From the NCBI GenBank assembly GCA_017506865.1, contig JAFCMP010000545.1, positions 310,001-374,000 on the forward strand: 64,000 nt of DNA, read 5' to 3'. The position numbers and the translations under genes are program-made. This document shows positions 8,801-54,700 of this stretch, in pieces. A model generated the notes under the pieces. It made no database searches. It saw nothing but the letters and a program-made list of their open reading frames with translations, and was not told where the DNA came from. The stretch comes from Tribonema minus (taxonomy: Eukaryota > Sar > Xanthophyceae > Tribonematales > Tribonemataceae). Position 1 is the first letter of the stretch. Every line of letters starts with the position of its first letter.

Positions 8801-11800
8801 AACACTCTTCAACTTGAGGTACCTTATTATGTGCGTGTTTAGCATGCGAAGAGCTGGTTTGTTGCATCGGCTGTGTCACATTGGGTACACACTGCACGCT
8901 CTGCAGTAACCCGCTGTGTGTATCCACTCGTGCAGTGCAAAAGAGCACTTCTTTGCATGTAACCCCAGTTCTCACCTCAAGTCATAGTATAACTTTAACC
9001 CGCCTCCCTCCACACTGTTTGTGCGTTGCAGGCCGAGTTATGGTTACTACAACCTGCCACGAAGTCAGCGCTCCAGTGACCCCGGCGAGATGGGTAAGCA
9101 ACAATTGAACTTCAAGTTGAGATCAGATTCCAATCCCTCCTGTTGGGGCTTGACTTCATCACAATGCTTTTCTGGCAGAGGTGGTTGCAGCAGCAGCAGC
9201 AGCCTCACCAGCACCGCCGCCGCCGTCGTTAGCTGAGTTGGCCACTGCCACCTCACAATATGTCACAGCACGTGTAAACGCCCTTCGCGCCTTTCTGGGC
9301 GCCCCATTTGAAGCTGGAGCTGTCAACCCCCCCCCCCCCTGTATGAGCCCCATCCCTTCAACAAGCCCATTGGCATGCTGTGCAATTGTCCACATTCGAT
9401 GGTCTGGGGGGGTGTTTACATGGGCGTTGCAGGTACGTGCCCAGGATGCCGAGCAGCTGCACACAGCACCATGACCACCACTTTATGCTGAAATGAACAG
9501 CTGCTACAAACTCCATTATCAAAAGCCTGATTAAAAGCTACTTCAATACTGGCGAATGCTGCAATGCCCCCTGCCCCCCCCCATGCTCTCTGCGCAGCGC
9601 TGGCAGCCGTTTTCTACAAGAGGCCCCCTCGCCTAGTGCCACTGTAAGATCCGCCGACGCACTTCAATGGGTCATCGATGCAGTGGCCTGCTGCTATACT
9701 GCCCTCAGTCTACAGCATGATGACCACAACGCATTTGCATCACTACTGAGTTGTAGCCTCGACCACTTGTTCGCCTTCAATTTATTGCAGTCTTAGAGAT
9801 TTGCACTACACATATTTAAAAAACTAACATGCATGGCGCCCGCGCCCTCTGCCACATAATTCCTGGAGAGCACTTTCAGATACGTATTTGGTGCTTGTGC
9901 ATGCTACTGGGCTTTAACTGCAAACAACTCGCTCGCGCACGCATGGCGCCTGCGCGCTCTGCCACAGGCTTCCTGGAGAGCACTTTCAGTTACATCTTCG
10001 ATGCTTGTGCATTGCTGACCTTAACCCCTCCCTCGCTGTTGATCCACCATTGTAGAGATTGACACATAAACATTAGAATAAATACGCACGGCGCCTGCGC
10101 CCTCTCCCTCAGGCTTCCTGGAGAGCACTTTCAGTTACATTTTTGGAGACGGCGACCCGAACGCCGACATCGAGGCCCGCAGACTTCAACTCATTGCCAA
10201 AGTCGTGAGGGCCAACGGCGGCGCCGTCACCGCGGAGCAGCTGGCCCCCTATCTGGACCCCCCCGCCCCCAGGGGGGGGGCGCAGGGGGCGACCGCCGTT
10301 GTGGATGAGTCGTTTGTGCTGCCCGCTGTGACAGCGCTTAAGGGGGAGCCGCGCGTGACGGACGACGGGGACATTGTGTACGTGTTTCCGGACCTGCAGG
10401 TGCGTGTTTCTACAACTTCAACCTTGAACTTGAAAGCGCGTGATGTGAAAATGGACACGACTTGATTTTGCTGAAGTGTGTTGAAGCCTTCTGAAATGAA
10501 ACATCCCAGAGGCGCGATGGCAGTGCTCAATAGCAAGAGCGAGCCTAACGCCTTCAGGCAAAGGCAGCTGTCGCGTAGTCCGCAGGCCTGCTAAACCTTA
10601 CCCTATGTAGAGCTGCCACAAGGAACATCGCTGACAAAGCGCAAGCTTCCCGGCAGCCCTGATCGACTGGCAGCAATTTCATGCCTGCAGCTGATGCTAA
10701 CCCGACCTGTTTTCTAAAGACTGTAAGCCCTGCTGCAACTGCCCTGCAGTGATTGCGCTGGAGTCAGCGGCTGTGGCACTGAGCCTTCGTCTGACTTCAA
10801 CACGGCCTCTATCCTGTTTCGTCCGGTGCTTCTGTGCCAAGGCCATACCAACGTCAGCTCTCAGCTTTCGTTTGAACTGATTCTCAGTGTAAACTGTCTG
10901 GTGCACATGTGTGCGTTGGCGCACGGTGCGGTCAAGCCGAGCCATCAGGTCTTGGTAAAACTGATAGAAGTACATCGAAACGTGTGTGTGCCGAAGGTCG
11001 CTGCGTACCAATATATATGCGTCAGCTGTGGTAAGAAAAGTGATGCACTTCTATGTGTGTTGCTGCATCTACCTATGTCGTATCCCTCGATCGGAGGCCA
11101 GGGAGTTGCACTGTGTGCCAAGCCTGAGCCCAGCCCTAGCCCTAACGCTCATGGACCTGCTCATGTGATGTTTGATGCTGCAAACGCCTGTCGTCGCATC
11201 GCTTTGTGCAAGGGTCAAACCCAGCCGTGCCCTAACGCTTATGCTGTGAATTTATGTGTGTTGATGCTGTGTATTTCAGACCACTGCAGTGGCATCACTT
11301 GACCCCGAGCTCAGGGAGCTGGAGGGCAAGAGCCCCAGCGAGCTCAAGCAGCTCATGCAGCAGAGACGCATCTACTCAGGCGACGTTTTTGAGAAAGGTG
11401 CGTGTCACAGACTTGAAGTACATGTACTCCTCTGCATCTTCATGTTGAACATGGAGCCTCAGTGAGCTCAAGCAGCTCATGCAGCAGAGGCGCATTTACT
11501 CGAGCGACGTCTTCGAGAGGGTGCGTGTCACACACTCAAGTACATGTACCCCCTCCTGCATCTTTATGTTTAATATGGTGGATCAATTGTTGAGTTTCTT
11601 GCGTGGTGGCTTGATGGAGTGCATGACTTTTGTTTTTTGAGCTGCAGCCTTTCCTGGGGCTTCAGGCAACACGTGCTTCAGAGTTTACCTTAGAAAAAAA
11701 GCACAACCGCAGCACCCATCAAGGAATGTGCCACTTTTTTAGCCATCAACCTTATTTTTCAACAGTAACTATGACCCTTTGCCGCCAGTGTGCCCTTGCT

Positions 11801-14800
11801 GCCTCCCATGAGCACAGCGTGTGTCTACACAGCGTGATGTCGAACTCTTTTGAGCCTGCCAGACAGCGTTCATGGAACTGAGTGTCGACATTTATGAGTG
11901 GCCACACAGCATGTAGGTATGGTGTCTGACAGCGCTAATCAGTCTCAGTACAACCGACAGCAGCTCACCCTGTACCACAACTAACCTACTTCTGACCCTA
12001 GGTCAATGCGCTGGCCTGGTCTGCATTGCATCGATGCCGCTGTCGGTACGTTTGTCGTTGGGCCTGTACTCTCAACGTGCTTCCATGCAAGCATTTTTGT
12101 CTTACAAAATAAGGTGGATTCTGCTTTGAATAAATCATAACCCAACGCCTTCGCGCTGCTGCCTGCTTACAGGAGAGATGGTGCGGCGGCTGCAGTCCAG
12201 CGCGTTGTCGGTTGCGATGCCGCTATCGATACCCTTGCTTTTTAACACCTGTTCTCTTGACGTACTTCCACGCAAGCATTGTTGTCTTACAATGAAAGGT
12301 GGCCCGTGTTCTGAATTACCAATTAACGCCTTTGCGTTGCTGCCTGCACACAGGGGAGATGGTGCGGCGGCTGCAGTCCAGCGCACTGTCAGTTACAATG
12401 CTGCTATCGATACTTGTGCTTCTCAACAACACCTGTTCTGTTGACGTCCTTCCACCATTGCCTTGCAACAAAACTGGTCTGCACTTCAAACAAGTCATAA
12501 ACCAATGCCAATGCCTTCGTGCTGCTGCCTGCGCGTGCAGGGGAGATGGTGCGGCGGCTGCAGTCCAGCGCACTGTCAGTTACAAAGACGGTGGACGTTC
12601 CGCCGACGCTGCAGGAGGAGCCCATTCCATTCAGCGTTGCGAGCCCGGGCAACAAGTTTGCTGCCGCAGCGCTGGGCGCGGTTAACTTGGGTGGGGCACT
12701 CTACCTCAGGTGAGTGTGACGCTCCAGCCTTGCGGCCGTCTTGAAGGAGTGTCTTATTTAGTTGAATATCACTACCCCCCTACGCGCCAAGCTGATTGCA
12801 CCATGTCATCCAACTGCAGATTGCTTGTCACTTTAGGTGAGTGACTCGCCGGCTTTGCTTCTTGGAATGGGTGTCAGCCAGAACAACGTGTGGAGTACCT
12901 TATGGTGAAGTAGTTTGCACAGCGCGCTGGGTTAAGCACCAAACTTTTTGCTCCATGTCATTTACCGCAGATGGTTTGTTGGCAGGTAGAGCTTGCTGCT
13001 GCCTTGCTGAGCGCGGTGAGCTGGGCAATGCACTGGTCAAGTTCGTGACCCACCATCCTTTCTTTCGAGACGTGTCAGTCTTGTTCAAGTTTATCAAGTG
13101 TCATGACAGTGTGTCGTAGAAATGGATTGTAGGTGGTGGAGAAGGAATAAATGAGAGATGGCGATGGCTGGGGCAGGTGCAGGGCAAAGCTGGGGTCTTG
13201 GGAGGCTAGGCTGTGGCCAAATGGAGCACTTCATCTTGTAGTTTACCAAAGCCCTGACTCCTCATGAGCATCAGTGCTTCTAGTATCAAGCTCATGCACT
13301 GTGCCATCGTCTGCGGAGTGTTTTGTGGGTACTTCAATCTTTCAAGTCAGTGCTGCAAGTGCGCTCTTCAGATTACCTGTTAGCTGCTGAGCAGGCGGTC
13401 ACGCGGCGGTGATGCAGGGGCCATGCCCCTTTCTTGTGATACAGAATTGCACATCATCACCCTTCCAAAAACTAGTCATCTGTTACACAACTGATGTATC
13501 CTAACTCTAACCCCAACGCACCTGCTGTATGCTCGTATGGCAGGTCGCTGCTGAGCAGCGCCGTGGCGGCGGGCGTGCAGTTTGGCGGTTACGCGGTGGC
13601 ATTGCACATCACCGCCCTTGCAAACAAGTGGTCATTATTCATCGCTTAACTGATGTAAGTTCCCATCATGTATGCGCGTGTGGCAGGTCGCTGCTGGGCA
13701 GCGCCGTAGCTGCGGGCGTGCAGTTTGGCGGCTACGCGGCGGCGGTGCAGGGCGCCATGCCGCTGCTGCTGGGCTACGCCGTTGCCTTCAACGTCATCCC
13801 GCTGGTGCGGTGGCTCCGCAACAAGGCCAAGAACGCAGAGGCAAGTACCTTGTGCCATTCGGCGTTGTCGTCAGAAGTGTTTGTCAATGCGCCTGGAGAC
13901 ACTTGCAAGTTCTCATAAGACACCTGTTGATTCTGGTCTCCGCAACAAGGCCACACTCATGGCGTACTCCCGTCTTGTTGCCGCCCCCACCGGTGCTTGG
14001 TGGTCTACTGCAACCATGCACTGGTAGGGTTCAAACCTACTACAACACGTTTGCACCACTGGCACTTCCGATAAATCATGGCCTAGTGGTGACTACTGAC
14101 ATGACAATGACTCTGCGCCTGTCCACTTGAACTTGTGCTGCAGATTGAGCAGCGCAGAGACGCACGCGCGCATGGCGTGGTCACGCCTCGTTGCCGCCGC
14201 CACCAACTTATACTTCATTCCACCGTTCAACACGACTTCAACACTGTGTTGCAGCACTCCAAACCAATGCTAACACAACCGCTATGCATCCGTCTTGGTT
14301 GAACTTGTGCTGCAGATTGAGCAGCGCAACGACGCGCGGATGGCGTGGTCACGCCTCGTCGCTGCCGCCACCAGCGCTTTGCGGTCTTCTGCGACCGTGC
14401 ATTCTAAGCTGCTTCAACACTTGTTCCAGCACTCCGACGAACAATAATAACTCACATGCCATGCCAACGGCTATGCATCCGTTTTCTTTGATTGCGCTGC
14501 AGAGTGAGCAGCGCAACGACGCGCGCATGGCGTGGTCACGCCTCGTCACCGCCGCCACATCCATGCATATTTTGAGCCACTTCAACAACACCTTCGTCAC
14601 CTCCCACTCCGACAAACTTATGCTTAGTGATGATTACTAACGTGACAATGACCATGTGACTGCCTTCTTGAACTCGGTGCTGCAGATTGAGCAGCGCAAC
14701 GACGCGCGAATGGCGTGGTCACGCCTCGTCGCCGCCGCCACCAGTGCTTGGTAGTCTTCTGCGATCATGCATTCTAAGCTACTTCCAGCACTCTGGCAAC

Positions 14801-15250
14801 CCATTGCTAACGTAACAACTCTGCGTCCGTCTTGGCGTGTTGCAGATTGAGCAGCGCAACGACGCGCGAATGGCGTGGTCGCGCCTCGTCGCCGCCACCA
14901 CCAACTCATACTTCTTGAAGTACTTCATTCCACCGTTGTACACTACTTCAACAGTGTGTTGCAGCATGTCCGCTCCATCGCTAACACAGCAACTATGCGG
15001 CTGTCCTGCCGAATACTTCTACCTGTTGCAGATCGAGCAGCGCAACGACGCGCGAATGGCGTGGTCACGCCTCATCGCCGCCGCCACGCCCAACAACAAG
15101 CGCAAGATGATGGCGGCGCGAAAGCTCTCCACCGAGCTGAAGGTCCTAGGCCAGGGCGACATTGCCTATACCACCGCCAAGGATTTGGCGGAGCAACAGC
15201 AAGAGCTTGCTGGCAGCGCGTTTGACGATTTTGACAGGCGGCTTAGGTAG
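5826..15250 (+). CDS. Plastid membrane protein of the At5g03900 / cyanobacterial family
   Basis: Nine exons join in phase: 5826-6050, 6325-6549, 7850-8085, 9032-9093, 10113-10399, 11280-11397, 12541-12709, 13687-13840 and 15032-15250, giving 564 aa. Residues 1-20 are a signal peptide followed by Phe21 (VSG|FG), the heterokont plastid presequence pattern. Exons 2 and 5 each hold a small wH-like unit ending in a GDLEVTETGDIVY- or TDDGDIVYVF-type strand. Exon 3 holds a transmembrane span (about 154-187). Exon 5 opens with FLESTFSYIFGDGDPN, diagnostic of this family. Exons 7-8 hold two more hydrophobic spans ending NVIPLVRWLRNKAKNAE. The plant member is annotated as iron-sulfur cluster biosynthesis-like, but its biochemical role is unclear to me. 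Intron 8 uses a GC donor (gag|gcaagt at 13841). Five of its exon ends have decoy copies in the introns. Confidence 0.88.
9826..10150 (+). repeat. Upstream copies of the exon 5 acceptor junction (plastid protein)
   Basis: Two copies (about 9829-9900 and 9940-10015) of the sequence around the true acceptor at 10112 each carry GGCGCC, CCTCT, and then TTCCTGGAGAGCACTTTCAG. The second keeps the CAG acceptor; the first has decayed to cataat. After about 30 exonic bases they drift into intron sequence, so they cannot be full exons. Confidence 0.85.
11320..11545 (+). repeat. Downstream copy of the exon 6 donor junction (plastid protein)
   Basis: The last 65 or so exonic bases (encoding SELKQLMQQRRIYSGDVFE), the GTGCGTGTCACA donor and the CAAGTACATGTACTCC-like intron start are repeated at 11463-11560. 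The true exon ends at 11397 in phase 1. The copy's donor would give phase 0 and break the frame. Confidence 0.88.
12010..12600 (+). repeat. Upstream copies of the exon 7 acceptor junction (plastid protein)
   Basis: Copies at about 12150-12240 and 12335-12415 precede the true junction at 12540/12541, with a more decayed trace near 12005-12060. Each shows CAG, then GAGATGGTGCGGCGGCTGCA and about 25 further exonic bases, then intronic sequence. The period is about 180 bases. Confidence 0.88.
13536..13745 (+). repeat. Upstream copy of the exon 8 acceptor junction (plastid protein)
   Basis: GGCAG followed by TCGCTGCTG-AGCAGCGCCG and on through GCAGTTTGGCGGTTACGCGG at 13541-13605 duplicates the true exon start at 13687. 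A further fragment, CTCCGCAACAAGGCCA at 13938-13953, copies the 3' end of exon 8 downstream of its GC donor. Confidence 0.85.
14140..15090 (+). repeat. Five upstream copies of the exon 9 acceptor junction (plastid protein)
   Basis: Copies start near 14144, 14316, 14502, 14686 and 14845. The true exon starts at 15032. Each has GCAG, then GAGCAGCGCAACGACGCGCG and ATGGCGTGGTCACGCCTCGT, then a GCCGCCGCCAC stretch, after which sequence turns intronic. The exonic parts are almost identical. The intronic parts differ far more, although units 1 and 5 still share blocks such as ATTCCACCGTT. Confidence 0.93.
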
Positions 15251-19254: not shown

Positions 19255-22200
19255 ATGTCGTGGCTGTTTGGCACCGGTGGCAAGACCAAATCCCCTCGCC
19301 ATGGGCAGCAGCAGGGCGGGGGATCAACCAGCGATGATGCTGACATGAAGCACCACCGCCTCACCCAGCTCGCCGGCCTCGAGAGGGATATTCCTGGCAT
19401 CGTGAAGCGAGCAGCGGATGGCGCCTTGTACGAAGTCCCGGTGCCAGTGGGTCCGGACGGTCATCCCGTTAATATGCGGATATTTTTTCCCGTCAAGTTT
19501 CCCGTTGAGAGGCCTGGTACGTGTCCATTTGTTCGGAAGTCGGATTACGCGAATTTGAAGTTTCATGCTGGCAGTCGTTGTCGTTGCAGACAAGAAGTCG
19601 CCAATCCAATGTGGCGAAGGAAACATAACTCTTCAGCTCCTTGCAGGCCGCACTAAGAAGGCGCCTTGCGTGCCTGGGGTGCATATGTTGGTAAATACGC
19701 ACTTGAGTTGCTGTCGTCTACATGTTTCGACGCCACCACTGCTGCAAAGGCCTCACATCATTTCATTGCCCGCCTTTGATTGCCACGCAGTACTGCAACT
19801 GCTGAGTACAGTGGACCACCCATGGGTCAACGAGTACATGCAGGTGGTGGGACATCCGGATCTGGCGCTGTGGAGAGGCAACGCGGGCAAGCCCATCAGT
19901 GTCATTGTGAAGGAGATAATGATAGAGCTCAGGTACGCACACATGTATTGCATGTGTGTATATGAAACTGTGCCAATGGAGGTTACAGGCACTTTCTGCC
20001 TGTAGCATTGGCCTCTGTCACAAATTCAGCAGCAGGCGCTAAGGTGCTTTAAACCACTGGATTATGTGGCAGAGTCGCGTGTGCTCCTCATGTGTGTTCA
20101 TCTGCAACTTTGGTGGTGATTTTGTAAGTGGATGTTGCATTGCTTTGACAGAAACATGGTCTTACAGCTGTGGTGTGGGCACACAGTGCTGGCACACCAG
20201 CTATTTTTATGAGCACAAGCACCCTGCAACGCTGGTTTGCCTGGCATTGCTGCAGAAGCATGAAAACTTTTGATGTCATGACCGGTCAGCTTCCAATGGC
20301 CTCTATTACCAATGCGTGCATGACACGATCGATGTCTGTGAGTCTGAGCTGTAATTAGCAATCCGACAGTGCTGCCCAGTGGCTCTGAACAGCATGCCAT
20401 CATTGAGGAGTGTCACTGGCATCTGGTTTCTGCAGCAGAGTGTACGCACCTATAATCATCTTGCGACGCAAACGTGTCATCAGCTTCATGCACTCAGCAC
20501 CCTCCACGTTCAACTGTGTCCCAACTTCAACCTGTAACAGCGGGGGCACCGCAAGCACGGCAGGGCAGGCGCTGCCCCAGCAGCCATCGCAGCGCATGCC
20601 AACCAACGCGGCGAGCTTTGCCCACCCCAGCACCGGACCGCAGCAGTGGCAGCAGCAGCAGCCCTCGTGGCGACCTGATGAGCGGAAGCCCAACTGGACC
20701 CCCCCGGAGGGCCCCATCGGAGCAGCCAACGGCAACTCGGGGGGGCAGTTCTGGAGGCCCCAACCCTCAGACGGGTCGCAATCCGGGGGGGGGCGTGTGG
20801 GGGGGGGCGCGGCGCAGTGGTCCCCCTCGCAGGTCGGCGCGGGGGGAGGGGGGTCGAGCACTGATGCAAAGCGTGTGGAGGAGAAGCACCGCACGCCAAT
20901 CCCCGCGATCCCGTCGCGCTTCGCGGAGCTGGACGGTCTGACGGAGGCGCAGCTGCGGCGCCTCGCGGGCGACGGCGTCGCGCTGGCGCAGATCGTGGAC
21001 GGCATGGCGAGCGCGCGCGGCATGCGCGAGCTGCTGCGCGACCTCGCCAAGGGGAACGCCGAGGTGAGCACTGAGTTTGCGTCTGAGTCTGATTCTTGGA
21101 GTCCGAATCTGCATCCGAGTCTTCATTAGTGTGTTGGGAAACGCCGGGGTGGGGATTCGCTCGCGTTGCACTCATCGGGTTCTACACAATATGCACAGTG
21201 TGCACATGTTGGGAGAAGGGCACTCAGAACTCGTAGGCACAGGAGTCTTGTACTCCGACCCTCCGTCTGTGGCGCACTGACTGCAGCGGTCCCGCATTCA
21301 TCGTTCGCCCGATGTCGTGCGTGGAGGACTGATTCAGCAGTCAAGCACATATTCGCACTTAGGGACATTGTGCACCATGTCAATGTTTCTGCTGCGCGAT
21401 CTCGCCAAGAGGAACGGCGAGGTGGGGATTCGCTTGCGTTGCGCTCATCGAGTCTAGGTCTTGTGTGCTGGGGCAACGGCCGAGGTGGGGATCGCTCTTC
21501 TTATGCTCATTGGGTTTTGCGGCTTGTACGTCGATCGTCCATCTGCCGCACACTGACCGCAGCGGTATCATGTTCATCGGCTTATTGAACTATTGTGCGC
21601 AATGTCATTCTTTGCTGCTGCGCTACCTCGGCGAAGGGAATGCCGAGGCGGGGTTGTCCATTGCATCACTTTTCTTCTTCTGCACTCACTGGTTGGCCTG
21701 CACATTACTGCTGCGCATGGTCTTCGCTGCCTGCAGCAACACCGCGTCCATTGTCGCCACAATTCCATGTAAAATATTTGTTGAACATGCTTGTGGCTTG
21801 TAAATATTTGTCTGCTTTTAGCACTGTCAGTTCTAGTCGCTCCAAGGTTCATTTAGGAGCGTCACCAGCCTCTGTAACTGTCAGCAGTGCGCTGCGCCTG
21901 TACGGCGAGATGCTCACACTGCACTACACCATGTATCTGCCCCATAAAATGATACAAATTGGCCATATGTGACTGCTCCTCCGTTCGTATTAGACACATG
22001 TAACGCACAACGCGCTGACAACCCTGTAAATGTGGCTCGTTGCAGGTGGCAAAAGCAAATATGGAGAGCAGCCGCAAGCTCGACGAGCTGCGTGATGAAA
22101 TTACAGCGCTCAAGATGGAGCTTCATGAGGTCAAGGACGCATTTGAAGGCAAGTCTGTGCCACTTGCACAAGGCACTCACAGACGCAGCGCTGTTAAGTT

Positions 22201-22630: not shown

Positions 22631-22679
<49 letters not shown>

Positions 22680-24128: not shown

Positions 24129-24169
<41 letters not shown>

Positions 24170-24201: not shown

Positions 24202-24216
24202 GGGGATGCTGCTGCC

Positions 24217-36640: not shown

Positions 36641-37440
36641 CGCAGCGCTCCGCTAGGTTGAGGCGTGCTGCAGCAAATGCGGCGCGGGTGCGTCAGCCAG
36701 CCACCGGAAAGCGCAGCGGGGGCCAGCGGGACCGTCCGCGTCGCACTCTGCTCAGCGCTTGTCGAGCTGAGCCGTGCTGCAGCGGAGCGCGCTGAAACCT
36801 GTTGCAGCAAAGGCGCGCGCGTGCCTCAGCAGGCCCACGGGGCAGCGCGCGCGGCGGCCGGCGCCGGTGAGGCGAGCACGGCACGACGAGTCCGTGTGCA
36901 AGAGCTTCGGTGACTCTTCTGAGCGCTGCACAGAGCTGAGCCGTGCTGTCGCGCGTCGGCCGGCGGCGAGGAAGCCCGCGCTGAGCGCTGATGACGCGCG
37001 CACGACAGGTCCGCCTCGAAGCGCTCGGTGACACTGCTCAGCGCTCTGTTGAGCTGAGCCGTGCTGTTGCGGATCAGGCGGCGGCGAGGAATCGCGCGCT
37101 GAGCGCTGATGACGCGCGCAGGACAGGTCCGTCCGTGAGCTCGATGACGCTAGGCAGCGCTCCACAGAGCTGAGCCGTGCTGCGGTCGCGCGTCAGCCGG
37201 CCACGAGGAAGAACGTGCTGAGCGCTGGTGACGAGCTCCATGACACTGCGCAGCGCTGCACAGAGCTGAGCCGTGCTGATGCGCGCGTCAGCCGGCCACG
37301 AGAAATCGTGTACTGAGCGCTGGTGACGAGCTCGATGACGCCTCGCAGCGCTGCACAGAGCTGAGCCGTGCTGCCATGCCTCAGCCGGCCACGAGGAAGC
37401 GCGGCGGGCGCGGCGGTATGCGCACGAGGTCCGTGTCGAA
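36640..37440 (-). repeat. Tandem array derived from the terminal exon of the phosphatase
   Basis: At least six units of about 75-125 bases contain GAGCTGAGCCGTGCTG, a CGTCAGCCGGCCACGAGGAA-like block, GCGCTGAGCGCTG(A/G)TGACG, and often a GAGGTCCGTGTCGAAGAGCT-like block. The last two match the coding 3' end of phosphatase exon 3 (37381-37450). The array lies directly downstream of that gene's stop. Units become more degenerate away from the gene. Confidence 0.8.
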
Positions 37441-38969
37441 GAGCTCGATGAACTGCTCGTTCTGGACGCGCACCTTGTGCTTGGTGAAGTGCCGGTACTC
37501 CTCAAAGATCGAACTGAGGTTCCAGCGCTGCAGCTTGCGCAGGCACGCCACGACCGTGCCTGGAGGGCGACGGCAGAACATGCATGATTCATGAGTACTT
37601 TTTCAGGCATCTTGACGTTAACAAAGGAGGGAGGTGGGAGTTGAAGTTGCAAATAAATTGGGCCGTTACATGTTGGGCATAAGTTGATGATGGGTACACA
37701 AGCGCCGCGGGCATGCGCGCCAAAGAATTAGATGTCCAGGTGTAACGTGCACAGCAGGCCAGAGGGGGGTGGTTTAACGTACCAGACGCTGCCGCACAAT
37801 AGACTCAAAGAGCTGTCTCCCTTGAAGCATGAAGCTGAGGTTCCAGAGGTGTAGTGTGTACAGGCGTGATCGATGGCGTCTGCATAGGCATGCGCACAAA
37901 ATCATCGTCCGTGTCAAGCAGCAATGCATGCTTGCCAAGGTTTCGCTTCACGGGCTCCAAATGCAGCACAGCGTGCAACGCTTGCATTAAAAACTTCTGA
38001 TTGTACATGAATGATGCGATAAATGTCAGCTGAGTGAGTGCAGCTCTCAGTGTTGTGCAGGATGCTTCTCTTCATCTACATACAAGACCCCCCACAAATA
38101 AGATGCTGCTGTGTCTCGTCACGTGGAGGCGAACGTTCTGTCCTGGCACTTGCCTGTGCGGTGCTTGCCAGTGCCGCACATGACCAGCAGGGGGTAGTGC
38201 GTTGTGTCCACCAGATACGAGAGCGCCTCTATCACAGTCTCCTCAGCAATCATATGATTGTTCCTGCTCTTGTTGGCCAATTGGGCGGACTCGTCCTGCT
38301 CCCCCAGGCACACCAGCTTCACCTCCTGGTCCTCCAGGAAGCTCTCGCTGCGCGCGCGTGTGGCGCATCGAAGGTCAGCAACTTCAGATGTATGCTGATT
38401 TGAGCAACTTCAAGAATATGCTGGTTGTACCGCCATGCGCAAGGGGGAAGCCGAAAAGATCGACAGCTGAGTGGTTGAGACTGTTTGAGTCAGCACACGT
38501 CAGAACAGTGCAAAGGTCCATGTTCAGCAACAATACGCGACAGTGACACCGTGCTGGCAAATACTTTTCAGAGAATCGCCCTTGTACAGACACTCGCGCG
38601 TGTCAGCAATTACACAGTACAGTGAGCGACATACATGCCAGGCGAAGCTCATTGATTGAAAGCGTAGCATCTGGCGGCTATAGCAGCATTGCACAAAATG
38701 CATGATAGTATGCAAGTTTGACACTGATGTAGGAATACGATCTGCTGTGGCGGCGGCGCGCTCAGCTGCCCTACAAGGCCTTGCCTATTAGATGCAGACT
38801 GCAGGATGACATTCACTCACAGCTGAGCGTCTATGTCTTCGTCTGGGAAGAGGTAGATGATGGTCTTCAGCTTCAGCCGCTCCAGGAAGGGGTAGTTGAT
38901 CTCCGTGGGCAGGCCGCTTCTGTAGAGTCCCTCCTCCACCGGCGCAAAGTTCACAGGAGGGAAGAACAT
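37381..38969 (-). CDS. Siw14-type atypical dual-specificity phosphatase
   Basis: Three exons join in phase: 38969-38821, 38347-38154 and 37559-37381, giving 173 aa, a normal length for this family. It opens PPVNFAPVEEGLYRSGLPTE, then FLERLKLKTIIYLFPDE, both hallmarks of plant and fungal PFA-DSP/Siw14 proteins. The P-loop is CGTGKHR (Cys107, Arg113) followed by TG at the exon junction and VVACLRKLQRWNLSSIFEEY. Family members hydrolyse phosphotyrosine in vitro and 5-beta-phosphate of inositol pyrophosphates. Intron 2 has a GC donor (acag|gcaagt at 38153), supported because it alone restores the HRTG-TVVACLRK continuity. The C-terminus (RIPPRPPRFLVAG) is short and lies where the tandem array begins. 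It is head-to-head with the DnaJ gene. Confidence 0.9.
37795..37935 (-). repeat. Decayed upstream copy of phosphatase exon 3
   Basis: Plus-strand CTGAGGTTCCAG at 37832-37843 and the GCGCACAAAATCATCGTCCG block (about 37892-37911) with TGTCAAGCAG after it parallel bases 37514-37525 and 37420-37445 of exon 3, in changed order. It lies in intron 2 and is not translatable. Confidence 0.45.
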
Positions 38970-39147: not shown

Positions 39148-42100
39148 ATGGCCAGCGCAAACGCAGGAGCTGGGCCGACAGAGCCAGCAGCCAGCGCGAC
39201 GCCAGCTGCTGCGGTCGCTGCGAACGGAGAGATCGAAGGAGAAGAGGCTGGCTTCGATGAGTTCGACGAGGAGCTCAGCATGTTCGACACGTCTCGGCCC
39301 AAGCACGTGGGACAGGTGATTACTCGCTGTCACTGTTTGGAGGCAGCCACCACCTCGCTCCGTCGATGACCTTGACAGACTCTTTTCTCAGGGTCCGGGA
39401 GAGTATCTTCCTGTACCGTAGGCCATTTTCAATCCATCGTCTCATGACCGGATCCAACCCTGCGATACCATCAGGGCTTCGCACTTATCGGTCTCGTCGT
39501 GGCCTCCCTGCCGTCTCAGGGATTGGCAAGCGGCCTGGGCTCCATAGCCAAGGGCGTTGGCAGCGGCTTGGCAGTGGTGGTGGCGGGACCGATGTATGGC
39601 GCAAAGCAGGGCGGCGCGACGGGCTTTGCTAAAGGACTCATTGGCGGTGTGGTGGCCGGCACCGGCCTGGCCCTTGCCGGCGTTGCTGTCGGAGGCGTTC
39701 AGATGGCCAGAGGCATCTGGAACACTGGTACGCTTGCGCAAAGGTTTCCTATTCTTTCCACATCATGCAGAATTTCTTTCCACAATCTTTTGTGAGTCGG
39801 TGCAAGGCATTTTCCGTGTCATGTGCCACGTGCGCTGCTGCCAGAGCTGTATTGGCTGCTCGGTTGAGATGTGCGCAGCTGCCATTCGCTTGTCCAGATG
39901 GCCTGTGATTGCCATGCATCGACTACGTGCTTACATTGGGTCTGTGTAACACGCGGCCGTGGTGGTTTGAGCCAACTGCATGGCGCACAGCGCTGTGATC
40001 TGTGCCAGGTTCACCTGCGCAATGTGGATTGGTCTCCCCACGGGTGCGTATGAAAAGTGCTGGCACAATCTGCGTGTCATGGTTGTCCACATATTGTTGT
40101 ACCAGCAATGCAGGTTAACGCTACCAGTCAAACTTGGGGTTCAGAGGAAACGGCCATATTGAACTTCTGAGCGCTGGTGTTGTCTGGCCAGTCATTGCTT
40201 ACATGCTCTGTTCACTGCACGCGGAGACAGCCAGGGACCTCAGGGCGCCGGCGGAGAATTTGCGCAAGCTTGTTTACAAATTATCCGTTAGCTTGTTGAC
40301 AACAGTCTGTCAGCGCGCTGAGGCCCAAGCTTGTTGACGAATTCTCCGTCAGCGCCCTGAGGTCCCTGGCTGTCTCCGCGTGCAGTGAACGGAGCATACT
40401 GACTCACCTGCCACGGGAGATTTGCACACGCTCGTTGAGTTGCTTCAGCACTGTCACAGAATAGGTAGTCATGTAGAGTCTTATGACACACAGCCTGCAT
40501 GTTGAAGTTCCCCCCTGTTTAAGCCAAGCACTAACTAATCGTGACCATTTTTACGCTGCATTGCCACAGCGGAAGCGATCTCCGCCACTAAGGAGGGTAA
40601 GGAGTGGGACGAGACAAGCGGCAAATGGATTCTTTACAATCTCCCCGAGGAGGCGACGCTGGTGCTGCCTATGGATGAGGTGCGTGCTTGCAGTTGACGT
40701 TGAACTATGCATTGGCCAGCGCATTGAAGTATCATGCTCTGCAACCACTTCACCTGCAGAGCGTGCGTGCTCTGCGCTCACAGCAACTATGCAGGCGGTC
40801 AGAAAAATGTCAAAGCAGGTACATATCAGTGGAGGACGTCGTTGTCTCGCATGCACTCGCCATGAAGTTACTCAAATCCTCGAGCGCAAATGCCGTAGGC
40901 GGTCTTGGTGTGTACATGCGTGCAGGTGGCATACAAAGAGTACCGTTAGCAGTGGCCTGCATTGCGGTTCAGTCAACCGCATTACCATCGAAGTTGCACT
41001 TGACGTTGCAGCCAAGTAAGAAAATTAAGTCAGCATGTGTGACACTATGCAGAGTACAGTGCAGGTTAACGATTTGCGTGCAGGCAGCGTACACGAAGTA
41101 CTGCAAGCAGGCACGGCTCAGCCAGGCCTCACCAGGTTGATGTTACACTTAAAGTGACCTCAATCAGCAAACCGCTGAGAGCAAGTTCACGGTCGTTCGG
41201 ATGCAGGCGGCGTTCATGGAGTACCGCAAGCAGGCACGGCTCAGCCAGGGCCTCCTCTCCTCCTCCAAATCGGCCAACAGCCCTCCAACCCCCTCAGACG
41301 CGGACGACGGCAGCGCTGCACGCCCCGCGTCCCCCCGGAAAACCCTTAAACCTGCCGCCACAGGGCCCGCGCGCGACGTGGTGGAGCTGGAGTACTATGA
41401 ACTGCTGGGCGTGGCGTCGAATGCGACGGCGGCGGAGATCAAGAAGGCGTACTATCTCACTGCGCTCAAGCTGCACCCCGATAAGAATCCGGGGGACGTG
41501 GAGGCGGCGGCGCGCTTCCAGGCGGTTGGCGAGGCGTATCAGGTGACGCTCCCTCTGGTGTACTGGCTTTGTACTTGGTGTGTACTAGGCCTGGTGCTCG
41601 GTTGTAGCGCTCGAGCGCGTCCGGACCGTCGGCGAGGCGTATCTGGTGACGCTCCCTCTGGTGTACTGATTGTGGACTGGTTGTGTACCGTTTTGTGGAG
41701 CTGCAGTGCGTCAGGCCGTCGGCTAGGCGCAGTAGGTGCGGCGAGGAGCTGCAATCGCACTCAGCCTCTCTTTGGTTCTACAGCGGAAGCAGTGGCCAGG
41801 GGGATGAGCACACCTTCATGAAAGTTTCTCAGGAGACCCCGCTTCCCTGAGAATGTTTAATAGCTCAAATGGTCGGGCTCGATGAGCCCTTTCAAATGCA
41901 CCTCTTTTCAAGTCCCCAGGCCTCAAAGTTCAAGAGTTACAGTGGATTCGGTGACTAAATCTGTGCTTGACATAAGTAGGGTTTGAACTAGGGTTTGGCG
42001 TTGCTCAGCTCCACCGACTCGCGGGGGCTCAAGGAGGTGGCCAATCGATGCCTGACACGTGGGGCTTTCCGGTGGTGCAACCTGTTCCCGCTGAAATTCG

Positions 42101-45100
42101 GGGTCTCCGGCGTTTGTGTCAGGCAAGCGTGCTGCTGAGAGAGCAAAATGGGCAGTCGGCCACTGCAGCCTTGCGGCTGCTGGTGTGGCACCCAGCCCGT
42201 GTAGACCTGTCGAGCACCTCGTAAGGACGCAGAGAACACGTAGTACTCGCAGCCTCGCCTGCAAACGCGTGTGTGGTCGCTGCTGCTGATGCAGCAGCAG
42301 CAGTAGCTGTGGATTATCGATGCTGCTTGCCCTGCTGCACACAAATGACCAGCGGCGTGGTAGTAACAGGTGCACATGTGCAGGCCGACCTTGCTTAGAA
42401 GCCCGGCTTATTTCAGGGCCGTTTTGGCGGATTTGGGCGGTTACAGCCGATTGTAGTCAGCGTCAGTCGACACATAACCGGTTATAACCGGTTTTCTGTG
42501 ATTTTTCTCGACTCAAGACGGCTAAAGTCGGACATGCTATCAACTATCCATCATGTCAATGAGGGGATTCCAGTCCACATAATATTAGGAGCCACCTCCC
42601 TCATTACACTACATCAGAAGCTATCCTATATCAACCCCCATCCCCCTAGTCACTGCTTCCACTGTATGCCATCTCGGCACATGGTACACCCGCCACAGGG
42701 TCTGCGGTTGAAAGTGTCGCTGGTGTGCAATGAAAGCATCGTGTTCAATGATGCAGACGCTGAGCGATGAGGAGCTGCGGTTACGCTGGAACAAATTCGT
42801 GCGCGCGCCCACTGCAGTCTCTCCTTGCTCTCTGTCCTGACCAATAATTGACAGAAAGAGCCAATTTCTGCGCCGTTTTGATGACAATTTGCACACACAT
42901 TGCATTGTTTTGAATGCGGCAGACGCTGAGCGATGAGGAGCTGCGGTTGCGTTACGACAAGTATGGGCGCGCGGGCACTGCGGATGCGCCTGTTATGGAC
43001 AGCGCGGCGTTCTTTGCCATGGTCTTCGGCAGCGAGAAGTTTGAGCCTCTGGTCGGCGAGATGAAGGTGGGCCTGCATACATACATACGGCGCGCTTTAA
43101 TGCTTGCAAAAAGTGTATATAATAAAAATAAGTGTATAGATAGTGTTACTCGCTATGGTCTTTGGCAGCGATAAGTTTGAGCCACTGGTCGGCGAGATTA
43201 AGGTGGTCATGCATACATACATACAGCGCGCTGTAATACCTAACAAAAATTACATATAGTGCTGTTCACTATGATCTTCGGCAGCGAGAAGTCCGAGCCA
43301 CTGGTCGGCGAGATGAAGGTGGGGGCATGCATACATACACAAGGCGTGCTGCAATGTGTGTGTACAGTATGTTGAAGTATGATTGATGTGAGAGCCTATA
43401 TGCTATGCCCTGTGGTGGCTCATGTCCATGTATGTCACGCGCGCTCAAGTGTATTGGAGTATGTAGAAGTGAATTTGCGATGTGACGCTATGCGGTGGCA
43501 CACGAATGCACGTCAGCGCGATGCATGTGCACAGGCACGGCGGCGCCGCACATCCGGCTGCTCGACGCTGCGAAGCCATTGGCACGTACACTCGAAACGC
43601 TCAGCGAGTTGAAGTTTGCCCCATGCTGCGCCCTTGAGGACTCAGAGACGGGGGGACCCGTGCTTCGAGAGGACTCAGGCCTGGGGCACGTTTGGTGCCC
43701 GCAGTGAACGCAGTGTACGAAGCAGCCACGCGTTCTCGCATTGATTCCTTAAGTTGCAAGTTGTCCTGACCGTGAGAGTTCCCCCTTCTGTTGGTTGAAG
43801 TTATGTGAACACAGATTGATGTCCTCAGCTGGGAAGTTGTCCTGACAGCTGAAGACTTTGTACTCACGTTGGTGTCTTCAGCTGGGAAGTTGCTTCGAGA
43901 GGACTCAGGCCTGGGGCACGTTTGGTGCCCGCAGTGAACGCAGTGTACGAAGCAGCCATGCGTTCTCGCATTGATTCCTTAAGTTGCAAGTTGTCCTGAC
44001 CGTGAGAGTTCCCCCTTCTGTTGGTTGAAGTTATGTGAACACAGATTGATGTCCTCAGCTGGGAAGTTGTCCTGACAGCTGAAGACTTTGTACTCACGTT
44101 GGTGTCTTCAGCTGGGAAGTTGTCCTGATAGTTGAAGTTTTTCTAGGAGCTGAACTCTCTATCATGCTGTACCTCGACGTTGCGGCAGATGAGCGCGACG
44201 GTCACCATGATCGACGAGGAGGACTCGGAGTCAGCGTATATGCAATCACGTTGGTGTCTTCAGCTGGGAAGTTGTCCTGCTAGTGGAAGTTCCTTTTTTT
44301 GATAGTTTCTCTTTCTGATAGTTGAAGACTGTCTTCTCTTTCTGATAGTTGAAGTGTGCCTTTTGCTGCCCTGCCGCCGCTACAGATGAGCGCCATGATC
44401 ACCATGATCGACGAAGAGGACTCAGAGCCAGCGCACATCAGGCGCGTGCGCGAGGCGCGCAAGCAGTGGAAGTTGCCCTGATAGTGGAAGTTCTTCTTTC
44501 TGATAGGTCGTCCTCCTGATAGTTGAATTCTGTCTTCTTTTTCTGATAGATGAACACATCATCATGCTGCCCTTCGCAGATGAGCGCGATGATCACTATG
44601 ATCGACGAGGAGGATTCGGAGCCAGCGCACCTCAGGCGCGCGCGTGAGGCGCTCAAGCAGTGGAAGCGCGAGGTGCAGTGCGCGGTCAACCTGGCGGCGC
44701 TGCTGCAGCCATTCGTGGATGAGGAGGTGACAGAGGCGGCGCTGGCGGCGAGTCTGGAGGAAATGGCGCAGGTGAACTTGATTCAAGTGTGAAGTTGGAT
44801 CTGAGTAGTGCCTGGAGGGAAAAATGGCGTAGGTGAACTGGCTCTTCAAGTGCATCCAAGTGATGAAGCAGTGCCTGGAGGGATGGCGTGCAGGTGGATG
44901 ATACTTCAACTGTGAAGTTTAGTGGTTTGACTCACTGAGCTACGCTGGCGGCGAGCCGGAGGAATGGCGCAGGTGAACCGATTGCTCAAGTATGAAGTTT
45001 CACCTCAGAACTGGCACGCAGGTGAACTGATGGTATTTGAAGTATGAAGCTGCACCTCAGTAATTGAGTAGTGCCTCCATCAGGTGAATGATACGTCAGG

Positions 45101-48100
45101 TGAAGGTTGAATTTTAGGTTGCCACACTGAGCTGTGCTGGCGGTCAGGCTGGAGGAACTGGTGATGATGCTCTGTGTTAAATACAAGGAGGTGGCGCATA
45201 TGGCTCTACGGTCCTCTTGAAGTCGCAAGCAGTTGACAGCAGTGCGCACCCCTGTGCCCTGTATTTGTCGCAGTTGAAGTGTGTTCTCACTTTGCCGTGA
45301 CTCACACTGAAAGGTCGCCCAGTCATCAGTACATGGACTAATTGTTTACAGTATGCAGCAACGTGTGTCCCTCACAGGTCCAGCTATACCTATTGTTTTG
45401 CCTTGCACAAGCTCCTTGTGTAGCTGCAAGACTGCAGTGGATCACCGCTCTGCTCCATCAAGGTTTCACTGCATGTTGAAAGCGCGCAGTACACCACTGG
45501 TATACACCCAGCTGACAGCAAGTTGAAGAGTGTATTTTATCATTACTGATGTAATTACACCAATTGCGTACGGCTTGCAGGAGCTCACTGCGACGCCATT
45601 CGGTGGCGACCATTGGCTATGTGTACTTCATGGCAACGAAGCATGCATGTATGGTTAAAGTCACGACCCTCAAAATTTTGAGGACTTTGCGATAATGGAT
45701 CACCACTGTACCTACTCTCAGGGATACATTGCAGGTGAAGAGCCCTGTTCCTGATGCACTCTTCAAATTGTTTGTGTCTTGCAGGAGTTGGCTGCCACGC
45801 CATTCGGTGGCACGCTGCTGGCGACCATCGGCTACGTTTACAGGGAGGCAGGGAGGGCGTCTCTCGGCGGTGCCGCAGGTGCCTTTGCCGGCACGTTCAG
45901 GCAGACGGGACACTCTCTGGCCACGCGCTATCGCGTCACCAAGGCTGCTGTGGGGATCGCGAAGCAACAGGTGCGCCTTCTATGTTGAAGTTATTAATTT
46001 TCTTTGAGTGTCTACGGCACTTTCAGGCAGATGGGACACTCCCTGGCCACGCGCTATCGCGTCACCAAGGCTGCTGTGGGCATCGCCAAGCAACAGGTGC
46101 GCTTATGTTGCGAGGCTGATAATTAAAGTTGAAGTACATCAGTTGTTTTTGGTGTAACAGAACGTTCAGGCAGACGGGACACTCCCTGGCCACGCGCTAT
46201 CGCGTCACTAAGGCCGCTGTGGGGATCGCCAAGCAGCAGGTGCGCTTGGGATGGTGGTACCTCAAGTTGAAGTATGCTTCTGCCTTGGAGCTTATACATG
46301 TTTTTGGGCCTGTAACAGGACCATGCTGACCATGTAGGTGTGTGACATAGAAGTATGCAACACTAGGAAACACTCATCGTGATTACAATCCACGTGCTTC
46401 ACCGGAATGTATTAGACCAGACCTGATGAGTTTCATGTAGAAGTATTGAGTTTCATGTCGAAGTATTCGCTGCCGCTCTGCGGAGGCTGCAGCCAGCGCT
46501 TGCAAAGCAGCAGGCGCAGGTTGCATGGTGCAAGTTACAGTAGCTCTTTCCTGCATGTGTATGAAGAAGAACATAATAAAAAAATGCACCATCATCACAA
46601 TTGCGGCTGTAAAGTTTATGGCCCGCATTCGCTTGGCAGTGTTTTCGTGTTGGCTTGGCAGTGCTCGTTTGAGAGACGACACGGGGTCATTGCAGCCGCG
46701 GAAGTCGTCAAAGGAGTGCTGTTGTTGAGTGTGAATTGGCATTTACCGCTGATGCAGCGGCAGAAGATGACGTGCAGCAGGTGCGCGATTGCCTGATGCA
46801 CAGCAGTGCCAATGCTGGCAACCATCACTCTACTAACACAACGATTTTGCAGTGCTCCTTCACACACACAGCTTCGAGTGCAAGACTGTCTTGTGTGTCA
46901 TCGCAAGCATCAGCAAACCGGCACCTCCCACTTCTGGTGCGTCACAGGTGAAGATGCAGGGCTCCGCGGCCCAGAAGAAGCTCAGCAAAACCGTCAAGAC
47001 CAAGAAGCGCGGCAGCTTCAACGGCAGGGGGAGCACTGACGCGACAGACGACGCAGCAGCAGCGGCCGCGGCGGAAGCTGCTGCCACTGACGCTCCAAAT
47101 GGTAGCGAGGGCGCTGCTGCTGCTGCTGCCGCTGCTGCGGATGCGGCGGAGGCGGCGGAGGAGGAGGATGAGCTGGACCCGGCGCTGGTGCAGAAGGTGC
47201 GTCACCACTGGCAGTTTGTGACAAGTTCCAAGTGCAACATTATGGTCGGCAGCTATGACGGCAGCAGTGGCGACGGCGGTGCCGCTGTTGCTGCCCGGAG
47301 GGGGAGTCGGAGGCGAAGGAACTGGCATTTGGGCTTCGACATGAGAGCATCTGTTGCTGGCCATGATTTGTCATGGGAAGCACCCCTGATCCTGCTTATT
47401 TAAGTGCTTGACACTATTCTTTGTTTGCTGACAAACAACCATGCTCTTCTGCATTGCAGGCCGCAGAGCACATGCTGGAGATGCTATGGAGCCTCAGCGT
47501 GATTGAGCTGGAGCAGACGCTGCACAGCGTTTGTCGTAAGGTACGAAGGCATGCTTGTAAATACTTTCTTACATGGAAGTACCTCATAATCTCCCAATGT
47601 AGTAGGCATGCGCTCAAGTACATAATGCCTGATGCGTGTGTGTATCCGCTCACGAACCACTGAAGCGTTGTTGCGCAAATGTCCAGGCACATCACCATCG
47701 CCGCGTCTGCATTGTCAGTGTCTACTCACAACAGCACTTGACGTGCTTGCTGGAGTGGGTATACACGTGGCTCGATAGACACTCATGTCCGTGGGACTGG
47801 ACCAAACCCATGAACCAGCCACGCATTGTCATTGAGTTGCTGCTGTTCCCCAGATGGACCCTTGGCTGGCGGCCAAGCGCCAAAAATGGATCAGGGCGCT
47901 CCTTGACTCCATGCTCACGTGCCTCCCCCTCCCCCCTCTGCGCTTTGTTTTCACTTCCAAATAACTTCTTTTTTGCCTCAGGTTCTCGCGGACAGGTCCG
48001 TGGAGAAACCGAAGCGCAAGCGCCGCGCGCAGGGGCTGCTCCTCGCTGGCGCCTCCTTCCTCAAATACGGCGGCACCGCAGCTGCAGGTCTCATTGACAT

Positions 48101-51290: not shown

Positions 51291-51707
51291 CACCCTAAAT
51301 GCTTGGACTATCTGTGGTACCTGTCTTACATCCAATACATGAGAAACATGAGATGCTTGAGATACTTCATGATACTTCATTTGCCCTGTTCACCGGGGAA
51401 CCCTCGGCACAGGCAGGTCAGCATTGTGAGTGGAGAGTAGCAGTGGTTAAACAAACACTTGCTTCAAAAATTGTCGCGAAGCAGGTATGAATAAATGTAC
51501 TTCGTCGAGGTATGTTATTGTACACATGTATGTGTAGTACAAGCGTGCGTCAAAACACATCAGCCTGCTGAGTAACGTGCGACAGTTTTGGGCACTGAGT
51601 CTAAGCAGATGCTCAAATCTGAACAGCTGCTCAAATCTCACAGGCTCAATGCCCTGATCTCACAACGAATCACTGTTGGCATGTAAACTTCAGCGGCACA
51701 ATGAAAA

Positions 51708-54700
51708 CTACACATGAGAACTGCACGATGCTGGCCGCCACAAAGCATCGGCGCAATGTGTGCGGGATGCAAGTCGCCGATCTTGCCACCAGACATTCCA
51801 ATAGAAAGAGGCTACACATAGCTGCATCATCATGTACGTACGATACCAGCGCCTTGCTCTCACCTCGAACGTATGACGGCCCGGCGTGAGCTTCGGCTGC
51901 ACGACGAACATCTCTATGGACCCGGGCAGCACGGGCACCAGGAACAGGCGCACGCGCTGCCCGCCCGTGACGTCAAACAGGCGAACCGCAGACCCCGCCG
52001 CGTCGGGCGCGATGCGGTACTTGCTCTTGTTGAGCACGCAGTTGGACAGGAAGACCCAGCCCTCGCGAGTGCTCACGGACAGGCGTGCGCGCGCATCCGG
52101 GCTGACGACGTTTATACAGGGGAAGCGCGTGGTGACCTTGACCCCGGTGGCGCCTGCCAGCACGGGGACCACGCCGTTCACGCGGTCGACGTTGGGGACG
52201 AGGCCGCACTGGAAGTGCGCGTCCGCCAAGTTGAACTTTGCGAGAGGGGGGTTCGCGGGGGGAGGCAACTCCAACTGGGACTTGTCTAGGGCCAGGGCTG
52301 CGGCGCCCGTGACGGCTTTGCCGGCCCAGGCGTTGAAGTGGAAGCTCATGTACAGGGTTAGGAGATCAGCGGTGTGTTGGTGGATTTGGCGCGTGGGGTG
52401 GTGAATGTCTACGGCTACGTCGCTGCGCAATGCGTAGGGCGCGCGGTGGTGGCTGTAGAAGGGCCACACGAGGTCGCGGATGGAGATGCCAGTCAGCTGA
52501 TACCTGCGATGCGCAGTACGGGGCATTGAAATGACATATGGACTTGGCAGTATTACGGTGACAGTGGCAGCCGCATTCTGTGGTGATGCAGGCAGCTGCA
52601 GAAGGGTGCACAGCGCAGCGCAGCAGGTTTGAAGGCACAAAAACGCTTGAGAGTCTGGTGTGATGGGATTCAGACACCAGTGCATCACGCCGCTGTGCTT
52701 GCGCCGCTGTGCATGTTGCGTGCGAGACTACAAATTTGGTCAAGTCTACTCTGTTCAATGCAAACTCACACGCCGCATGCTACCACAACTGTGTCTGACA
52801 GGCGATGCGGTCTGTATGACCTCTTGACACTGGCCTCAATCAGGCGCCCAGATACTGGTGCACACTTGCACACACTCAAAACAGCCACACATTATGCAGA
52901 TGCTCTCAGCTACCAGGCCTCAGCGCATCAGAATCCACTGCGCTACCAAAATGTAGCCTTCAATCAATCAGCATCACGATACTTTTATGTACTTCTGTAC
53001 TGTTTGGCTGGCAGCAACTGTGCCGACAACAAGCTAGCAAATGCTGTTCGCTTTATACAGTGCTATCAAAGTTCATAGACTCCATATACATGTGCATGTG
53101 CACATCCCGCCGTCTCGCTTTGAAGTTGAAACACAGCAAGTCGACATAGTGTTTGTAAATGGCGCAGACGCCATTCTGACTTACTTCTTCTCGAGAGCCA
53201 CGTACTCGGGCTGCCCCGTCTTGTACGTGAGACCGGGACCCCAGAAGTACAGGTTGAAGATGGCAGGCGGCACTTCAAAGGCGGTCAGCGCGTCTCGAAG
53301 CATGAGCTCATACGGCAGGGAGCTGAAGCCAGTCTTGAGTGTGTACTGAGTGGTGTCATTCTGCATCCCAGAAAGGCATATGTACAGGAAAACTTCGAGT
53401 GAGGTGGCAGAAATGGCTGCACGCACCATGTGCTGCCGGCAAGAGTCATGTGCACGGAGCCGACATCTTATGGGTTCGTATGATTTTTCAGAGCATGGCT
53501 ACTCAGTGATCTGTGGCTCAGGTAGGCCAGGCCACCCCGAAGGGGGTGCCATAAGTGCAGCTGAAAAGGGACGCGTTTAATGAGAAGAACCGCAACACAT
53601 AAATGCAGAGGACCATACTTCTATGTCAGACCTTGGCAATTGATGTGACCAGTCGTGATCCAACCGTGTGGTTGCTCATTCGCTTTACCAACTGCTTGTG
53701 TGTCTGCCATGTGTGTCTGCAATGATGTCAACACGTCAGCTGCTTGTACACGATGGATAACTTGACATAAACTTCGGCCGGCAATTGCCTTAAGGCACAT
53801 CCTTCCGTGAAAAGTCGGGTTCATGATGCACCAGCAAGCGGTATGTATATGTGAGCTCACCAGGCAAATTCAGCAATAAGAAAGAAATTGACGACTCTAA
53901 CATCAATGAAAGAGCATGTTCACGATTACGCAACAGTGCAAACCCGGCATTGAAGAGGCCGACCGCCTAGCGTCCAAGCTGTTGCGCCATGCCATTAACA
54001 GCACATACATGTTGACTCACCAGCGCAAACTCAGCAAAACACATGTCACCCGCTGGTCTGTCCATCGCGCAGCATATATGTTTTGACTCACCAGCGCAAA
54101 CTCGGCAATGAAGATATCAACCGCCTTGGTGTCCATGGCGGTTGTTGCGCACATGCCCAGGGTCAGACTGCCCGTGGAGCCGCGTGAGCCGTTGTGCAGG
54201 ATGACTTCTGACAGGGGGCACATCTCCTGAAGGCGAGCGAGAAACCTGCGTGGACAGTGGTGCCAGCATTGGGCCATCAAATGAGAAATGGGTGTGAGGG
54301 CCAGGCTTGCTTCTTTTGTATGTCATGGGGTGCGCGCCTCGGAGCGCAGCGTAATGGCCATGGCTGCTGTGCGATGTGACTGCTCAGCAAGAATGCGCCT
54401 GCTCGATGAACTTCAAGATGTGTTTTTGGCTGTGACTGAGTGCAACCTGCAACTGAGTTTGGGCTGGAGGCGTCGCAATATTGCACGAAGTTGAAATGGG
54501 AGACGTCATCGTCACCAATCTGATAACTATGAAGTGTACTTGCACACCACACTGCAGATGGTGTGCATTGAAGAGCGATAGGACATGCCTGCATGGCGCA
54601 CATGTCATCAACAGGCAGCACCTTAGACTCAATGGGTTTCCTTGGTCATAAGTACATACACGAACAAAACCTAAGGCCGCCACAACAGTGGTCATGTACC

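Follow-up and report, generated by a model that had tools for sequence, protein, structure and literature searches.

Introns in a 64,000-nucleotide stretch of the Tribonema minus genome (contig JAFCMP010000545.1, positions 310,001 to 374,000 of the forward strand; hereafter the window) contain rows of partial copies of the exon–intron junctions that border them. Tribonema is a yellow-green alga (PMC7139823). In six genes of the window, on both strands, 17 splice junctions each have 1–5 local copies of the junction and its flanks, and these arrays are local same-strand tandem segmental duplications. We propose, with a probability of roughly two in three, that tandem duplications of ~70–230 bp straddling the edges of coding exons are frequent and are filtered by exon-proximal splice choice. 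The repeats were first seen when the window was compared with itself, and alignments together with the gene model show that the repeated unit is the junction plus its flanks. The initial annotation had counted about 17 junctions in seven or eight genes; the 17 junctions and their distribution over both strands stand, whereas the genes number only six and the array in a phosphatase gene is not at a splice junction.

We analyzed 344 kb, comprising the window, contig C168 (80 kb) and contig C112 (200 kb), from an assembly of 158.18 Mb in 554 contigs. Gene models came from a simple ab initio gene finder built for this analysis, and some of those on C168 and C112 are wrong; six predicted exons resembling decoys, i.e. 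copied junctions, were removed by hand before junctions, copy–true pairs, events, sides and frames were counted. Each junction was represented by a 60-nucleotide (nt) query (45 exonic and 15 intronic) that was compared with the adjacent intron at a threshold score of at least 48. Same-strand copies were found for 24 of 256 junctions, namely 12/128 donors and 12/128 acceptors, as against 0/256 in shuffled introns, which is more than chance, and the earlier description of rows of decoy sites on the intron side is right. The claimed side rule is likewise confirmed, there being no copies in wrong-side introns (0/176 junction queries), in inverted orientation (0/256) or in the remaining introns of the gene concerned (0/874, these queries having been run within the gene only). 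Exon-interior queries did not match the adjacent intron (0/172), and 3/256 junction queries matched the body of their own exon. Within the window, 8/37 donors and 8/37 acceptors had copies, compared to 8/182 junctions outside it, so that the window is far richer than the rest of the sample; these 16 of its 17 junctions lie in five genes, and the remaining one, a helicase-like donor at 1162, is weaker. Genes are very unequal, with arrays at 8/18 junctions of a DnaJ gene, at 5/16 of the gene that we call g1 and at none of a short-chain dehydrogenase gene.

The copies include 28–87 nt of exon in the blastn events of the window and 22–87 nt in the whole sample by Smith–Waterman alignment, in which the query was limited to 90 nt. 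The nearest copy is mostly 71–204 bases away, and 225–358 bases in the VPS37 gene. Introns bearing arrays are longer than others (median 977 vs 512 nt). Windows from intron interiors reached a score of at least 48 in 56/1089 cases, made up of 41/273 in introns with a junction copy, where the matches presumably lie mostly within the arrays, and 15/816 in array-free introns. Intron-only and intergenic tandem duplications also occur.

Arrays of the same kind are present at stop codons. The phosphatase array (36881..37458, minus strand) consists of ~5 tandem units over the last codons, the stop codon (37381-37383) and the 3' flank and spans no splice junction, and the end of a gene on C168 is duplicated in the same way (score 69, its predicted end having first been replaced by hand). 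Duplication is therefore not splice-specific, and stop codons obey the same side rule, their copies landing in the 3' flank. Among predicted gene ends, 2/131 stops and 1/131 starts scored at least 48 (shuffled, 0/262), one of the two stops and the start belonging to a single repeat cluster on C112; the phosphatase stop query scores 44 and is hence absent from the 2/131.

The copies have diverged much as expected if selection acts on the true exon only. After removal of self-matches and matches with fewer than 12 exonic bases, 41 copy–true pairs were left of 313 matches. Their exon parts differ at 206/2076 positions (9.9%), their intron parts at 139/791 (17.6%) and their splice-signal bases at 13/158 (8.2%). 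Two of these pairs, from PheS, carry a wrong edge in the divergence and frame counts because their donor was wrongly predicted at 47493, the transcript protein P0212 agreeing with 47534, and for one C168 gene (41353) the true exon and its copy are possibly swapped. By our own arithmetic from a 26.6% synonymous share, selection on the true exon alone predicts an exon divergence 0.63 of that of the intron (~11%), half the intron divergence for splice signals (8.8%) and a synonymous share of ~0.42, and the observed values are 9.9%, 8.2% and 0.44. Exon-part differences fall on the three codon positions 59, 50 and 97 times. By eye the differences look mostly synonymous, which would suggest strong coding constraint on all copies; we rejected this candidate since the full count, 87 synonymous to 112 nonsynonymous differences (random synonymous expectation 0.266), is about that of neutral copies of an evolving exon. 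The synonymous share is higher in the window (72:70, 0.51) than in the remaining sample (15:42). The copies are thus close to neutral, though perhaps not strictly so. The copy at 44386 in the DnaJ gene keeps an isoleucine (AHIRR) where the true exon at 44580 has leucine; the isoleucine is shared with P0002, the transcript-derived DnaJ protein of a close relative from EukProt, and the copy may therefore preserve an older state of the exon.

Decoy sites are often intact and generally weaker than the true sites. The correct GT or AG is retained in 32/41 copies and lacking in 9/41 (5/30 in the window), and the median score of decoys is 4.9 vs 6.4 for true sites, with decoys below the true site in 26/32 cases and at least equal in 6/32, on a scoring matrix that was trained on predicted introns of this sample and favors true sites. 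The initial annotation held that using a decoy breaks the frame, and we find that a decoy used alone keeps the frame open in just 2/41 cases; copy distances are random in frame (multiples of 3 in 14/41). Annotated and transcript-derived proteins bear on which site is used. The annotated T. minus protein P0092, with which the g1 translation is identical over 420/420 aligned residues up to a frame slip of ours in its last exons, takes the outer site at all five g1 arrays and includes no g1 copy. The DnaJ gene translated with outer splice sites aligns at 606/616 residues to P0002, with two 1-residue gaps and no copies. It also agrees at every aligned residue (616/616) with the NCBI T. minus protein P0001, which in addition carries inserts of 14, 30 and 44 residues (88 in total) at three exon joints, derived from four arrays. 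PheS behaves similarly, P0212 having a single ARDMQDTFYVK where the genome holds further copies. No new spliced intron was found in the two transcript proteins compared, P0002 and P0212, both of a relative, while the annotation P0001 includes copies. The outermost of the near-identical sites appears to be the one used, which fits P0092 and the relative's P0002, but survivorship would give the same picture.

In our model, head-to-tail duplications of ~70–230 bp would arise often by slippage or unequal exchange, leaving two splice sites that are identical at birth. If the outer, exon-proximal site with its full exon keeps being spliced (survivorship would look alike), the mRNA is unchanged and the copy has been turned into intron. 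Selection would afterwards hold the true exon and its site, the copy and its decoy would decay nearly neutrally in a longer intron, and more slippage or unequal exchange would extend some arrays to several units. Tandem duplication together with the need to retain the exon-proximal site would account for the side and orientation of the copies and for their including the splice site, and what looks like a rule marks the duplications that are tolerated. The rule was initially called strict; its side survives and its strictness does not, given the stop-codon array of the phosphatase gene, the 9/41 copies without GT or AG and an intron-only duplication at 43661-44122. Nor is the special splice-linked process or regulatory layer inferred at the outset required, since tandem duplication and exon-proximal site choice suffice.

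Several results weigh against this model. Exon copies have fewer gaps than predicted (1.45 per 100 vs 5.06 in intron parts over the 41 pairs; model ~2.5), and changes assigned to the copy side are 29 synonymous to 35 nonsynonymous (p 0.0015 vs an expectation of 0.265, which copying from an evolving exon lifts to ~0.41 at most). The array at 45970 shows 9 synonymous to 1 nonsynonymous differences over two copies, a ratio chosen post hoc among 26 junctions. Junctions also appear to be duplicated too often. Blastn gave 34 events that touch annotated introns. In 23 of them the match crosses a junction and takes in 15 or more exonic bases; with the PheS event, which was moved by hand to the spanning class because the true donor 47534 lies inside the match, the count is 24/34. 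We simulated uniform duplications with neutral decay, a similar detection threshold and three age ranges; spanning events make up 15/17 in the window vs 24–27% simulated (p 4e-8 to 2e-7), 9/17 outside it vs 28–33% (p 0.026, 0.051 and 0.071, hence borderline) and 24/34 overall vs 28–33%. The excess of junction-spanning over intron-only events is accordingly strong in the window and borderline in the rest of the sample. The junction rate of 24/256 likewise exceeds the 15/816 of array-free intron interiors, and exonic parts are shorter than if placed uniformly within the unit (21 events, mean 0.37, Kolmogorov–Smirnov (KS) p 0.010). Events were tallied per intron, so that clusters 42736 (window) and 29775 (C168) are each counted twice; in the window, the two events classed as "intron-only" correspond to the degenerate donor array of VPS37 and to the phosphatase stop array, which falls within a spurious plus-strand gene model, and a genuine intron-only duplication, that at 43661, was absorbed into the 44580 cluster.

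These observations would be explained by a mutational process that targets splice junctions or the edges of coding sequence; repair linked to transcription or R-loops, and breakpoints determined by nucleosomes positioned on exons, are examples. The excess of spanning events over the simulated 24–33%, the comparison with 15/816 interior windows, the short exonic parts and the crowding in two genes (5/16 and 8/18 junctions) all speak for such targeting, and the 15/816 and KS results led us to weight generic duplication lower and a targeted process higher. However, the window was handed over for looking striking and is a selected rather than a random stretch, so that the outside-window figure is the fairer one, and that figure includes one hand-reassigned event and one low-complexity cluster counted in two introns. 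The crowding by gene reaches only a permutation p of 0.065, the two stop-codon arrays argue against splice specificity, and a mature-RNA template is contradicted by the absence of copies of spliced junctions (0/123). Counter-selection could also produce the short exonic parts, if duplications whose exon copies are long and usable were lost; a targeted process might do so too. On balance we regard a targeted process as unlikely, although it fares best among the rivals. Unlikely as well is a combined account in which the duplication process favors coding-sequence edges in a subset of transcribed genes, natural constructs with duplicated splice sites are left in large number throughout the genome, and a few copies, such as those at 45970, become in-frame protein repeats.

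Some arrays could instead be genuine tandem exons, read in frame and adding to the length of the protein. The copies at 45970 form two open 66-nt cassettes, included in P0001 and absent from P0002, and show the 9:1 ratio; P0001 contains copies from four arrays, in frame, at three DnaJ joints, and the paralogues P0005 and P0010 have similar repeats. On the other hand, P0002 and P0004, transcript proteins of the relative, whose genome may or may not hold the arrays, lack the copies; P0092 uses no g1 copy, our ab initio predictor likewise inserted copies that the PheS transcript lacks, and the 45970 ratio was picked afterwards from 26 junctions. We therefore consider tandem exons improbable. In-frame tandem segment repeats are found in the T. 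minus annotations P0001, P0005 and P0010. In the annotated paralogue P0005 a threefold repeat lies, as judged by eye, at seemingly the same place as the 45970 array, and in the paralogue protein P0010 a twofold repeat lies at the place of the 44580 array; the transcript proteins of the relative corresponding to P0001 and P0005 (P0002 and P0004) are without repeats, and P0010 had no counterpart among the transcript proteins compared. Judging from these comparisons, the repeats in the T. minus annotations are probably decoys taken for exons. The arrays are also a pitfall for gene prediction, in which decoys get inserted: the 88 extra residues of the public DnaJ protein of T. minus are missing from the relative's transcript protein.

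That decoys form a regulatory layer kept by selection, holding splicing complexes, slowing splicing or causing intron retention, is in our estimate still less probable. The retention of GT or AG in 32/41 copies and the better preservation of exon than of intron parts would be in keeping with it; it predicts splice sites conserved by selection, however, and splice-signal divergence (13/158) is as expected of neutral copies, sites are lost in 9/41 copies and below the true site in 26/32, and periods are random in frame. A mature-RNA or cDNA template was rejected, as copies extend into intron sequence and no exon–exon junction was copied jointly into the intron between (0/123); an introner or other mobile element should leave dispersed copies, and other introns of the same gene held none (0/874); and an assembly artefact seems unlikely because most copies differ by ~10–18%.

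Five of the arrays lie in g1, a conserved stramenopile gene on the plus strand. At 9794..10146 the acceptor 10113 has copies at 9968 (AG kept) and 9858 (AG lost), P0092 following the outer site. The donor 11397 (11330..11578) has one copy at 11520 with a period of 124 bp and a 1-base deletion in the exon copy. The acceptor 12541 (12032..12585) has copies at 12354 and 12173, and the acceptor 13687 (13526..13749) has one at 13544, with a weak match at 13354 beyond the range. The longest array (13959..15087) belongs to the acceptor 15032, with copies at 14846, 14686, 14503, 14316 and 14144 and a degenerate fragment near 13960. The intron concerned, 13841-15031, seems to be of the GC-AG type, as P0092 implies an exon end at 13840, followed by GCAAGT.

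Eight arrays are found in the DnaJ gene (DnaJ-X), also on the plus strand. Its acceptors 41207 (41079..41254), 42923 (42736..42981) and 45785 (45574..45811) have single copies at 41084, 42757 and 45581, respectively, and acceptor 44580 (44185..44666) has two, at 44386 and 44189. Of its donors, 41542 (41512..41688) and 44771 (44740..44999) have one copy each, at 41645 and 44972, while 43066 (43016..43356) has copies at 43202 and 43318 and 45970 (45889..46274) has copies at 46096 and 46239, readable as two in-frame 66-nt cassette exons. The intron-only duplication at 43661..44122 (plus strand) is a 230-bp tandem repeat with 99.6% identity, and so close a match points to recent duplication, or possibly to a problem of assembly.

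The remaining arrays are scattered. In the helicase-like gene, which we take to carry a P-loop motif, the donor 1162 (973..1189, minus strand) has one weak, degenerate copy near 992 with GC and no GT. The VPS37-type gene has a donor at 21063 (21031..21653, plus strand) with degenerate copies at 21421 (GT kept) and 21647 (GC), the sulfotransferase-like gene a donor at 26154 (26096..26565, plus strand) with copies at 26286, 26426 and 26558, and the SGNH-type gene a donor at 54092 (53999..54140, minus strand) with a 71-bp tandem copy. Pfam supports VPS37 (PF07200), the tyrosine phosphatase (PF03162) and the short-chain dehydrogenase, and matches the sulfotransferase-like protein weakly (PF03567, just under the cut-off); in this search of the window proteins g1 and the SGNH-type protein had no match, and the names SGNH-type and helicase-like are those of the initial annotation. 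Beside the SGNH-type gene, a long degenerate tandem array with periods of ~18 and ~82 bases occupies 50155-51293, part of which the gene finder called coding. Elsewhere, 28524-35054 forms one long open frame that weakly matches a reverse transcriptase (PF00078, below the cut-off), and a 501-base piece of it (30000-30500) has perfect matches (100% identity) at no fewer than 40 places, 40 of the 344 candidates having been scored.

A literature search by title or start of abstract found no description of junction arrays in Tribonema. As far as the parts of the sources available to us describe them, the nearest published case found is the potato RdRp gene, in which a tandem duplication across an intron–exon boundary yielded a copy that is spliced as a new intron and exon (PMC4974935). 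There, the duplicate of the 3' side of an intron and the 5' side of the next exon corresponds to our acceptor-junction copies; unlike that single case, the Tribonema copies seem silent in the intron, involve 24/256 junctions and affect donors and acceptors equally (12 and 12). In the Rogers model, introns are gained by tandem duplication of an exon piece containing AGGT (PMC4974935, PMC2891723). Tribonema shares with it a short tandem duplication carrying splice signals, but here an existing junction is copied and no new intron is seen in P0002 or P0212. Introners similarly reshape introns on a genomic scale (PMC9860276), but are dispersed, in contrast to copies that are absent from other introns of the same gene (0/874). 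Intron borders also carry direct repeats near splice sites (PMC11782384); those are of 4–30 bp and were compared between the two borders of an intron, whereas the Tribonema units of ~70–230 bp repeat one border. Finally, competition between duplicated splice sites has been described by intron-centric and exon-centric proximity rules, with reference to Reed and Maniatis 1986 and Carranza 2022 (PMC10228655); the site choice proposed in our model corresponds to the exon-centric rule. If the density in our sample (24/256; 8/182 outside the window) holds genome-wide, Tribonema would provide a large number of natural cases in which near-identical splice sites compete, and the old question of whether the spliceosome chooses the intron- or the exon-proximal site would be directly testable. 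Like the competition constructs, the arrays present several near-identical 5' or 3' sites; unlike them, they are natural and built up over time, and the exon-proximal site is apparently the one used.

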